From Mariannaea sp. PMI_226 (taxonomy: Eukaryota > Ascomycota > Sordariomycetes > Hypocreales > Nectriaceae): a stretch of 64,000 nucleotides of DNA. Positions 28,289-40,584 of the stretch are shown here, one piece after another. The position numbers and the translations under genes were made by a program. Position 1 is the stretch's first letter. Each line of letters starts with the position of its first letter. The notes below the pieces were generated by a model, which saw nothing but the letters and a program-made list of their open reading frames with translations, was not told where the DNA came from and searched no databases. The stretch lies in assembly GCA_024336345.1 (NCBI GenBank), contig JANFOG010000004.1, positions 248,001-312,000 of the forward strand, written 5' to 3'.

Positions 28289-30750
28289 TCATTCGTAAAG
28301 ATCCGTGTCCACGTCGGCGTCCTTGGATGAATGCGGACTCGTTACCTTGATTCCATTCTCCAGCCTGGAGAGCGTCATGGCATAGCCCTTGTGGTCGCAC
28401 CAGCTACGCACCATCTTGACTGCATTCTTAATCTCTCGGCCATTGAGCTGCCAAAGTGACAGCTCCTTGATGTCCTCGTCGTCAAGAGGCTTCTCCTCCT
28501 CCTCCTCCTCCTCTTCCTCCTCCTCAGCCGCCACTCCTGAGGAGGCGGGGTCAGGCGCGCCGTCGGAACCAGCGGCAAGGAGTCGCTTCTGCTTGGACTT
28601 GGACTCTGGCTTGGGAAGACGGTCAAGGAACTTGCGCCAGATGCTCTCGCGGGCATCCCTGCTAAGCGCCTGGAACAGCAGGTGGAGGCTCACGCGGCTG
28701 CGGAAGGCCGAGTCGATGGTGTGGTACAGGTTTGTGGTGAGGAAGATGATGCCGCGGAAATACTCGAGCTCACGCAGGAAGATACTCACCAGCTCGTTGC
28801 GGTGGATGTCGTTTGGGTTGCGCTCCGCCATGAACACGTCCGCTTCGTCCAGCAGGATCACGGCGTTCCACTCCGTCGCCATGGAGAAGACGCGCTTGAT
28901 GTTGGCGCCCAGCGTCGCCGCGCTGATGCCCAGGTCCTCGGCTTGCAGGTAGAAGAGCGGGCGGTGCGTGCGGTCCGCCACCGCTTCGGCCGTCAGCGTC
29001 TTTCCTGTGCCTGGGGGTCCGGAAAGCAGGATGATGAGGCCCTGGCCCTTGCCTACGATGACGTCCTCCATGGCGGATGGGGAGCCCTTGGACGTGCTGT
29101 GGTTCTCGACAAAGGAGAGCACGAGGTCCTTCTGCTGGTCGTCATAGACTAAATGAGAGAAGGCTTGATCATTCCATACCATGGGCTCGATATCTTCGAC
29201 ATAGAATTGAACTATTGTACACACAGAGATAAGCACGACACATTCAGAATGGTAAAGAAACTCATTAGGCAAAGAGCAGGGAGGGGGGAAGGTTGTTAGG
29301 ACTTGTAATGGGACAGAAGAAACTCACCCCATAGCTTGTTCTTGAGAGCGTATCCCTCAATCATTTGAGACATAAAGGCCAGCTCCTCTGGCTTCTCCAT
29401 CATCTCCTCAATGTTCCTCTTCTGAAGCTTCTCGCTCAGTCTTCTCTGCTGCGTCTTGGGACCTTTGGAATTCTGCTCGTCTTCGTCCTGGTCCTCGTCG
29501 TCTCGGAGCCGGCGGCGTCCACGACGGACTTGATTCCGTGTCGTCTCTGGATCCTTCTTCTCCCGCTTGCCCACGGCGAGGTGGTACTTGTTGTAGCCGA
29601 TAACGTCAATGAGTATGCGACCCTCTACGTTGTGCTTCTCGATGCACGATTTTTCACCGTCGTGTAGCGCGATGCCATTGTAGCAGCAGTAGGCCAACCC
29701 CTGGAGGTCGAGCACCTTCTTACCCCTCGCAATGAGCCTTGCCATAATCGCCTCCTTGTCTGGGTGGAAATCGAGCGGGTAGTGTCGCAGCTCGGTGATG
29801 GGCTTGTTTCCTGGGAAATCCGGAATGGGGAAGCTCCTATCCTGCCAGATGAACTCCTCGCCGCTGAAGACCATAACTTTGGCCTTGATGACGAGGAATG
29901 TGCCTTCGGTCTTCTTCACGTACTCGGTGTCCTCGACCTTGCAGATGAACTCGGAATTGACGCCGAAGCTGTAGACGGTTGAGCCACGGGGGAACAGTGT
30001 CCAGGCAGACTTGAAGTCAATGAGGCCGCGGGAGAGCAGGTGGCGTCTTTTAGTCCTCACGTCGCCGAACATGTCCTCGAGCAGCCGCAGCAACAGCTGG
30101 AGATAGCCCTTGAGGGGTTCATCGGTGGATGTGCGGCGGTACAGCGATTTGATCTCATCCTGGCAGAACCACAAGCCCCGGAACGGCTGCGTGAACTCGG
30201 CAGTGTCATGGATGTCGAGGTAGACGTTTTCCTTGACCAGCACAGGCTCCAGAGCGGCCACCAACAGAGGGTTCTGCACTTCGATCCGGTGGTACTTGAG
30301 AGGGAAGCGTCCACTGACACAGGGCTTGTCGCGGTCCTTGATCTTGTAGACCTTGATGGCCACACGCTCCTGGGCGCGAGCGGCAGCCTTGCTCAGCTGC
30401 TTTGGGGGGTAATCCACCCACTCAAAGTGAGTTGCGTCGGAGTTCTTCCCTTCGTAGAGCGTCTTGATGGAGGCGTCCACGCCAAAGGTAGGATCCTTGG
30501 CCGGAGCAGCAGATGACGGTGATGTTGTTAAGGCGACAGTGCCAGCAGCATTCGCTGTGGTAGCCGCGGTAGTACCAGTGGCCAGCTTAGGATCCTCATC
30601 GGTGGTGGCAATAGTGGTAGTAGTGGTGCTCGAGTTGAGATCAATGACACCCTTGAGCTTGAGGCCGGCATCTGACTTGTTTGTGAGTTTGCAGCGCCAT
30701 TTCCAGACAAAGTCGGAGATGTCCTCGCTGTCAATATCTCTAAGGCCCAT
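28289..30750 (-). CDS. AAA+ ATPase of the fungal DUF7025/BCS1-like family
   Basis: Two exons (29328-30750 and 28289-29211) join at LW|VQFYVEDIEPMVWND across a GTGAGT...ATAG intron to give 781 residues. The N-terminal part has a low-complexity Thr/Ala stretch, then a conserved region found in fungal AAA proteins of unknown cellular role (for example GLWFCQDEIKSLYRR, VYSFGVNSEFICKVEDTEY and RILIDVIGYNKYH). The AAA core follows: Walker A GPPGTGKT (residues 539-546), Walker B VILLDEADVF (about 592-601) and a sensor-like LTTNLYHTIDSAFRSR. A run of consecutive Glu residues encoded by a CTC-strand repeat near 28494-28525 splits the lid region. An ATP-driven remodelling role is inferred; substrate and location are unknown. 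The start was set at MGLRDIDSED; an open frame upstream to 30972 looks like untranslated leader. Confidence 0.88.
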
Positions 30751-34330: not shown

Positions 34331-34875
34331 GTGCGAGTAAGGCTTCGTTCGAGGTTCAGCACTGAACAAGAAGAGCGGAGCTTGAAGAGTGCCTTTAACT
34401 TCTATTGATAAACACTGTGATTATAATAATTGTAATCATGTGTTTAATATTCTTGCTTTAATTTTTTTCAAAGACAGTTGGGCTTAGTATCTATCACATA
34501 ATTCTGAAATTCTGATACTGGTACCAGAGAATCTCTGAACAACTAGTTACATATATTAGTTACAACTTGCATTATACATAACAATGAAGAATAAGGACAA
34601 TAGGCTGAAGTGTAATAAATTAATAAGTGAGTAATGACGGATGATTTATACATAAGAATTATCCGTTCGTTTACTTCCTAAAAGAACATGAGAAGATCAA
34701 AGGTGCTGCAACCATGTCCAAGTCTGCCGGGGGGGGGGGGGGGGGGAATGTAGGGTAAGTGTAACTGAATTTGATGGTGAGCACCTACTGTAGCGAGGGA
34801 GCGAGCGTCTCACCTACTTGGTACAATGCTCTCTCCTCATAATGTCAACCTAGAGCTGAGTGCTTCAACAACAGC
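34331..34875. other. Intergenic region upstream of tRNA-Phe
   Basis: AT-rich 3' flank of the secreted-protein gene, then a run of 18 G at 34729-34746 and ordinary sequence up to the tRNA. No gene is seen. Confidence 0.6.
34729..34746 (+). repeat. Poly-G homopolymer (18 nt)
   Basis: An uninterrupted run of G in an AT-rich intergenic region, 130 bp before the tRNA gene. Length may be unreliable in sequencing. Confidence 0.8.
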
Positions 34876-35005
34876 GCGGGTTTAGCTCAGTTGGGGTAAG
34901 TTGCATAAACTTTCAAAACTCCAGCACCAAACAAGTCTAACCATCTCTACAGAGAGCGTCAGACTGAAGATCTGAAGGTCATGTGTTCGATCCACATAAA
35001 CCGCA
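34876..35005 (+). tRNA. tRNA-Phe (GAA) interrupted by a 57-nt GT-AG intron in the D-loop
   Basis: Exon 1 is 34876-34895 (acceptor 5' strand, U8, A9, D-stem GCTC and D-loop to G20). Exon 2 is 34953-35005. Joined, they form a 73-nt cloverleaf: D-stem GCTC/GAGC pairs only after the 34896-34952 insert is removed. The anticodon stem TCAGA/TCTGA encloses CTGAAGA (anticodon GAA), the T-stem is ATGTG/CACAT with loop TTCGATC, and the acceptor is GCGGGTT/AAACCGC with one G-A mismatch at the fifth pair. The discriminator is A. There is no intron at the canonical site 3' of the anticodon. The box A (TAGCTCAGTTGGG) and box B (GTTCGATCC) promoter elements are both intact, so RNA polymerase III transcription remains possible; a T7 terminator follows. 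It could also be a non-functional copy, but all other positions are well preserved. Confidence 0.88.
34896..34952 (+). other. Spliceosomal-type intron inside tRNA-Phe
   Basis: A 57-nt insert between D-loop G20 and A21. It begins GTAAGT, has CTAAC at 34937-34941 (branch A about 12 nt from the end), a pyrimidine-rich stretch and ends CTACAG. These are the signals and length of protein-gene introns in this same window. It does not sit where tRNA endonuclease cuts (between 37 and 38). Confidence 0.75.
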
Positions 35006-35013
35006 AACAATTC

Positions 35014-35020
35014 TTTTTTT
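35014..35020 (+). terminator. RNA polymerase III T-run terminator
   Basis: Seven T residues starting 9 nt after the tRNA 3' end, the usual Pol III stop signal. Confidence 0.75.

Positions 35021-37146: not shown

Positions 37147-40584
<3,438 letters not shown>

Follow-up and report, generated by a model that had tools for sequence, protein, structure and literature searches.

Inserts with spliceosomal intron signals split the D-arm of the tRNA-Phe genes found in Mariannaea sp. PMI_226

Every tRNA-Phe(GAA) gene that we found in the genome of Mariannaea sp. PMI_226, a fungus of the Nectriaceae (Hypocreales), is interrupted in the D-loop by an insert bearing the signals of a spliceosomal intron, and one tRNA-Cys gene is interrupted in the D-stem. 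Judging from the sequences, we consider it highly probable that the split genes are functional nuclear tRNA genes, that RNA polymerase III (Pol III) transcribes them, and that the pre-mRNA spliceosome takes out the insert as a U2-type spliceosomal intron.

Results

A split tRNA-Phe gene in the window

The window, that is, the whole stretch of 64,000 nucleotides that was analysed, corresponds to C20:248001-312000 of a genome assembly of 42,196,573 bases in 25 contigs. A first-pass annotation of the window had proposed that a near-perfect tRNA-Phe(GAA) appears once a 57-nt insert between G20 and A21 is taken out. When exon 1 and exon 2 (Table 1) were joined without the insert, ARAGORN returned a complete cloverleaf tRNA-Phe(gaa) of 73 bases with one mispair, G5-A68, which bears the proposal out. 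When the insert was left in, ARAGORN detected no gene at the locus, and the Rfam search of the unspliced locus gave a partial tRNA match of 26.9 bits, under the cut-off of 29. The second exon also holds the acceptor 3' strand and A73. The letters of the insert are as they had been described (GTAAGT, CTAAC, and CTACAG), with 11 nt following CTAAC where about 12 had been stated. The presumptive boxes A and B, with a spacing of 90 bp, are both whole, and so is the T7 run, as had been claimed. A run of 18 G residues is present at 34729-34746, about 130 bp upstream of the gene, and a run of 17 G residues is present at 37456-37472.

Table 1. Positions of the split tRNA-Phe gene and of a protein gene in the window, and of the intron in the U6 gene
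Feature	Position	Strand	Basis
AAA protein gene	28292-30750		
tRNA-Phe(GAA) exon 1 (positions 1-20), covering the 5' strands of acceptor and D-stem and the greater part of the D-loop	34876..34895	+	sequence; same in all 8 copies found
TAGCTCAGTTGG, which we take to be box A of the internal Pol III promoter	34883..34894	+	sequence
Spliceosomal-type intron, 57 nt, GTAAGT...CTAAC...CTACAG, at 20/21	34896..34952	+	sequence; position shared by 8/8 tRNA-Phe genes found
Branch-point-like CTAAC, 11 nt before the insert end	34937..34941	+	pattern scan and scripted check
tRNA-Phe exon 2: remainder of the D-arm, anticodon arm without 37/38 intron, variable loop, T-arm	34953..35005	+	sequence; ARAGORN fold
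Anticodon GAA	34966..34968	+	pattern and ARAGORN
GTTCGATCC, presumably box B	34985..34993	+	sequence
T7 run, presumed Pol III terminator	35014..35020	+	sequence
U6 intron	L141:1473-1528 (G000:C2 about 1227786-1227841)		sequence read by eye

The insert in the tRNA-Phe genes of the genome

A pattern search for the anticodon arm of tRNA-Phe gave 8 matches in the 42.2-Mb assembly. A laxer pattern returned the same eight and two further places, at which ARAGORN found no tRNA. The eight tRNA-Phe(GAA) genes sit on contigs C6, C19, C20, and C25. The first-pass annotation had suggested listing the tRNA-Phe genes of the genome and seeing which of them carry the insert. It lies at exactly 20/21 in all eight, with lengths of 55, 56, 56, 57, 57, 57, 58, and 60 nt. 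Each insert starts with GTAAGT, GTATGT, or GTAAGA, i.e., GTA[AT]G[TA], carries CTAAC followed by 11-12 nt to its end, and closes with CAG (seven genes) or TAG (one gene). Moreover, a genome-wide search that allowed up to three mismatches matched no tRNA-Phe gene whose D-arm is unbroken, and this search was able to catch intronless tRNA-Phe genes as well as those with a 37/38 intron. The anticodon loop is unbroken in all eight genes, and therefore none of them has a 37/38 intron. The complete complement of further, canonically split tRNA-Phe genes that had been envisaged as a refutation does not exist among the genes found, and the option that the window gene is a silent or mutated copy was not upheld either, given that all eight genes share the insert and that the search for an unbroken D-arm came back empty. 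As 63 of 1269 candidates were scored for the tRNA inventory, a tRNA-Phe gene too divergent for the search patterns could have been missed.

The 73-nt exon set is identical across the eight genes. The inserts fall into two families, one of five copies (family B) and one of three, and their pairwise identity in global alignments ranges from 0.58 to 0.95. For the flanks, the corresponding ranges are 0.54-0.68 upstream and 0.55-0.75 downstream. Unrelated stretches of the window, aligned with the same scoring, averaged 0.54-0.55 in identity, and their 95th percentile was 0.62-0.63; the flanks are close to unrelated DNA, with the downstream ones somewhat above it, up to 0.75. Since the exons are identical while the inserts and flanks have diverged, a constraint on the product is suggested; gene conversion could account for part of the exon identity. 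The eight genes are paralogues, and hence they do not represent eight independent gains of the insert. The 3' end of the family-B insert was matched at five places in the genome (up to two mismatches), all of them within tRNA-Phe genes, so that no source copy was found elsewhere in the genome.

Locus L005 (G000:C25:943151-946171) holds a cluster of four tRNA-Phe genes spanning about 1.2 kb, one of them on the opposite strand. ARAGORN miscalls two tRNA-Phe genes of this locus as tRNA-Cys(aca) and tRNA-Lys(ctt), with introns.

A split tRNA-Cys gene and the search for further cases

A tRNA-Cys(GCA) gene on C4 carries a 60-nt insert, GTTAGT...ACTAAC...AAACAG, inside the 3' strand of the D-stem, with 11 nt from CTAAC to the insert end. 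This gene was located by a CTAAC search, and its CTAAC is thus not independent evidence. Once the 60 nt are removed, the split gene equals exactly the 72-nt intronless tRNA-Cys gene at C22:1106748-1106819 (scripted check), just as the Phe gene without its insert folds as tRNA-Phe. Four tRNA-Cys genes were recognised in the genome by pattern (up to three mismatches), one split and three unsplit. Rfam scored the whole split gene as a tRNA with 46 bits over model positions 1-71, and the extra letters were put as a D-loop insertion. Because the insert position differs from that in tRNA-Phe, the tRNA-Cys case looks like a separate event. With one of the four tRNA-Cys genes split, it seems that Pol III genes have gained or lost introns recently or are still doing so.

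The scan pattern required CTAAC, then AG, then the 3' part of a tRNA, and gave 55 matches. The anticodon-stem test was passed by 11 of them, namely the eight Phe genes, the Cys gene, one uninterrupted Thr gene, and one match judged to be chance. Among a further 74 CTGAC matches and 43 T-arm-side matches, judged by eye, were the Cys gene and five Phe genes already identified, together with two Asp genes that have no interruption. One of the T-arm-side matches, L091, was considered as a split tRNA and proved to be a protein gene. By its translation, read by eye, it is argininosuccinate-synthase-like, and two introns, of 61 and 55 nt, seem to enclose an exon of just 5 nt, AACGA, at L091:1516-1520 (G000:C3). 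ARAGORN accepted none of four further T-arm-side loci as a tRNA, and two of these loci resemble protein-gene introns by eye. Another of the four, L142 (G000:C22:2443900-2444080, minus strand), is tRNA-like, as its box B is good and a long variable arm may be present; it is perhaps a degenerate or intron-bearing Leu-type tRNA. Split genes of other isotypes, or with other branch sequences or insert positions, may exist.

Signals of the inserts compared with those of protein-gene introns

The nine tRNA inserts (eight Phe and one Cys) all begin with GTAAGT, GTATGT, GTAAGA, or GTTAGT and end with CAG or TAG. When the nine were aligned, the letters common to all were those of the donor, of CTAAC, and of the AG at the end, besides a single isolated column. 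For fungal U3 introns, the available part of PMC5832005 gives a consensus of GT-AG, RCTRAC, and YAG with a mean branch-to-acceptor distance of 15 nt, and the signals of the tRNA inserts agree with it.

The window insert had been likened in length to the protein-gene introns of the same window, and here the comparison went the other way. The four window introns that were mapped by homologous proteins, in two genes, are longer (70, 74, 74, and 116 nt); their donors are GTATGT, GTATGG, GTGAGT, and GTGAGT. Four protein introns elsewhere in the genome measure 54-63 nt, with GTAAGT, GTATGC, or GTGAGT at the donor, CTAAC, and CAG or TAG at the end, and they form a small, partly CTAAC-selected sample, having come from scans that required CTAAC. 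The tRNA inserts have ordinary intron signals, and their lengths are at the short end of those seen.

A motif-only scan of the window with a strict pattern gave 43 matches, compared to 55 in the reversed window and 62 expected from a Markov model. With a loose pattern, the corresponding numbers were 53, 72, and 84. Since there is no excess of intron motifs in the 64 kb under either pattern, the presence of the motifs alone is no evidence, and the evidence lies in the position of the inserts, the number of copies, and the sister genes. All eight tRNA-Phe genes share both the position of the insert and its three signals, and this, together with the separate tRNA-Cys case, argues that the arrangement is not due to chance. 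A codon-based intron finder was also tried; its 56 candidates were mostly implausible by eye, and it was dropped.

Pol III signals and the intron of the U6 gene

Boxes A and B are kept in all nine split tRNA genes, and each gene is followed by a run of T5 to T7 that begins 4-12 nt past the gene end. A run of T5 or longer occurs in 2.6% of random 25-mers from the window. It also occurs within 25 nt of only 28 of the 64 other tRNA genes, and therefore it cannot serve as a general sign that a tRNA gene works in this genome. The presence of T-runs after all nine split genes favours Pol III over Pol II. TTTT is absent from the nine inserts, as expected under Pol III read-through; however, it is also absent in 17% of shuffled sets, so its absence is not evidence.

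One U6 gene was found in the genome, and it contains a 56-nt spliceosomal-type intron, GTTAGT...GCTAAC...CACAG, immediately before the ACAGAGA box. The Rfam match to U6 was reported as full length and hid this intron; the fit is poor over model positions 1 to 26 of the match, and a deletion takes up the ten positions after them. A better 5' part was recognised upstream by eye, consisting of the GACCTTCGGGTC hairpin ... TTGAAACGAT, which is followed by the 56-nt intron and then by ACAGAGAAGATTAGC. The U6 intron holds a box B-like element, GTTCGAATCC, and the U6 intron of fission yeast likewise holds a box B-like element. The intron in U6 implies that splicing of a Pol III transcript already takes place in this fungus. 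Both this intron and the T-runs support the earlier suggestion that Pol III transcription with spliceosomal removal of the insert is plausible for the tRNA-Phe gene.

Discussion

The proposed route to mature tRNA-Phe

In the reading that we prefer, Pol III would transcribe the split tRNA genes from the internal boxes A and B to the T-run terminator, and the pre-mRNA spliceosome would excise the insert from this transcript as a U2-type intron. A normal D-arm would not be expected in the pre-tRNA before the insert is removed, splicing would probably come ahead of full tRNA folding, end processing, and export, and the tRNA endonuclease would not be involved at the D-arm insert site. In minimum-energy folds, the native D-stem is unformed in all nine precursors. 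The folding tool also misfolds the spliced tRNA-Phe, and for this reason we infer splicing before final folding rather than read it from the folds. That the tRNA-Phe transcripts are spliced is suggested by the insert in every copy found, by the conserved exons, and by the fact that cytosolic tRNA-Phe is indispensable and has no supply from elsewhere. If the genome has no tRNA-Phe genes beyond these eight, removal of the insert is a necessity. Against this reading, the first exon would be very short and uncapped (20 or 23 nt plus leader), which is unusual for spliceosomal splicing, and the G5-A68 mispair of the acceptor stem is present in all eight tRNA-Phe exon sets.

Other explanations

The inserts might instead be removed by the tRNA splicing endonuclease (Sen complex) and ligase, with the GT...CTAAC...AG look being coincidental, and we regard this as quite unlikely. 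The Sen endonuclease acts at 37/38 or on bulge-helix-bulge motifs. The canonical position is not the one used here, as the anticodon arm is unbroken and the insert lies at 20/21 (Phe) or in the D-stem (Cys). With fixed offsets, the strict bulge-helix-bulge motif (two 3-nt bulges, a 4-bp helix, and a closed outer helix) was found in none of the nine split tRNA genes, and the outer helix has 0-1 of 4 pairs in each of them. The central pairs of exon 1 with the insert are all four possible in the five family-B Phe genes, two of these pairs being G-U; the remaining three Phe genes allow only 2-3 of 4 and the Cys gene 2 of 4, and the pairing is not conserved. What the nine inserts do have in common, apart from one lone column, is the spliceosomal signals. 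The Sen complex presumably works in this genome, given that ARAGORN calls anticodon-loop introns in other tRNAs, e.g., Met, Ile, Ala, and Thr. There is also a parallel in Cyanidioschyzon merolae, in which D-loop tRNA introns and permuted-gene junctions at 20/21 are ascribed to a broad-range splicing endonuclease (PMC3978253, in the part available). Against it, the available part of PMC4090602 states that Sen54 touches the D-arm, which is disrupted here by the insert.

It is similarly improbable that Pol II makes longer RNAs that are spliced in the manner of mRNA and then release the tRNA by cleavage. Transcripts that the spliceosome handles are normally made by Pol II, and the inserts have standard signals, but each of the nine split genes has boxes A and B and a terminator-like T-run, the flanks of the split genes are little conserved, and the U6 intron already implies splicing of a Pol III transcript. 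A further explanation, that the split genes are pseudogenes and the true tRNA-Phe genes are absent from the assembly or too divergent for the searches, is hardly credible. Eukaryotic tRNA genes with an insertion in the D- or T-arm are mostly single members of a large synonymous set and are regarded as pseudogenes, according to the part of the review PMC4090602 that was available, and the incomplete tRNA inventory leaves some room for genes of another kind. Here, however, the insert is carried not by one copy but by all those found, the exons are identical, and no copy with an uninterrupted D-arm was detected at up to three mismatches. The contiguity of the assembly (42.2 Mb in 25 contigs) also speaks against missing genes, as does the BUSCO completeness of 97.7% that the accessible portion of PMC11433043 reports for Mariannaea sp. 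PMI 226 (GCA_024336345.1, 42.25 Mb).

Relation to known introns

Spliceosomal introns in the U6 genes of Schizosaccharomyces pombe and other fungi were reportedly described by Tani and Ohshima in 1989 and by Canzler in 2016. They are the closest precedent for the removal of the tRNA inserts by the spliceosome, as a structured RNA made by Pol III is split by a GT...CTAAC...AG intron, and the U6 gene of this genome has one itself. The difference is that the host here is a tRNA, and that a whole isoacceptor family would depend on the removal. The U3 snoRNA introns of fungi, as far as the available part of PMC5832005 describes them, also lie in a small structured RNA, carry the same signals, and occur in intron-plus and intron-minus copies within one genome, as in tRNA-Cys here; U3 is, however, no tRNA, and the mean length of its introns is 92 nt.

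The canonical 37/38 introns removed by Sen are likewise inserts in nuclear tRNA genes that leave boxes A and B intact, and introns in the anticodon loop are called elsewhere in this genome. The present inserts differ from them in position (D-loop 20/21 or D-stem), length, and signals, and no strict cleavage motif is found in them. Ectopic tRNA introns of C. merolae, the Guillardia theta nucleomorph, and archaea also occupy noncanonical positions including the D-arm, and in the G. theta nucleomorph tRNA-Phe and tRNA-Cys are among the hosts (PMC4090602 and PMC3978253, available parts). Unlike the inserts described here, those introns are either bulge-helix-bulge introns or inserts of 3-24 nt with an unknown mechanism, and no spliceosomal signals are described for them in the accessible portions of these sources; the word stem 'spliceosom' is absent from the available text of the review PMC4090602.

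Judged by titles and passages, no description of spliceosomal introns in tRNA genes was found in the open-access literature, searched by topic and with the gene's own letters, in agreement with the first-pass annotation, which had called the case undescribed to its knowledge; most subscription papers are outside this scope, and priority cannot be certain. A scan of viral contigs gave no matches, and a scan of prokaryote contigs gave 24, of which 23 are titled archaea and one a Flavobacteriales bacterium; neither brought up fungal relatives. In tRNAscan-SE 2.0, noncanonical introns are modelled for archaeal searches according to the available part of PMC8450103, which would explain why split tRNA genes have been overlooked. 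ARAGORN misses or miscalls the split tRNA-Phe genes, and an annotation blind spot is thus indicated.

Implications

In Mariannaea, and perhaps in the wider Hypocreales, it seems likely that the whole cytosolic supply of tRNA-Phe comes from Pol III transcripts that depend on the spliceosome, with no 37/38 intron, and that introns in Pol III genes have been gained or lost recently or still are. The intron-plus and intron-minus tRNA-Cys genes provide a ready record of such gain or loss, and split tRNA-Phe genes that need the spliceosome would offer a clean test of whether it acts on uncapped Pol III transcripts. In the textbook division, the spliceosome deals with mRNA introns, and an endonuclease and a ligase deal with those of tRNAs. 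If all the genes found for an essential tRNA family do need the spliceosome, this division would break down; introns could then settle in the most constrained RNAs, and splicing capacity would be coupled directly to translation.
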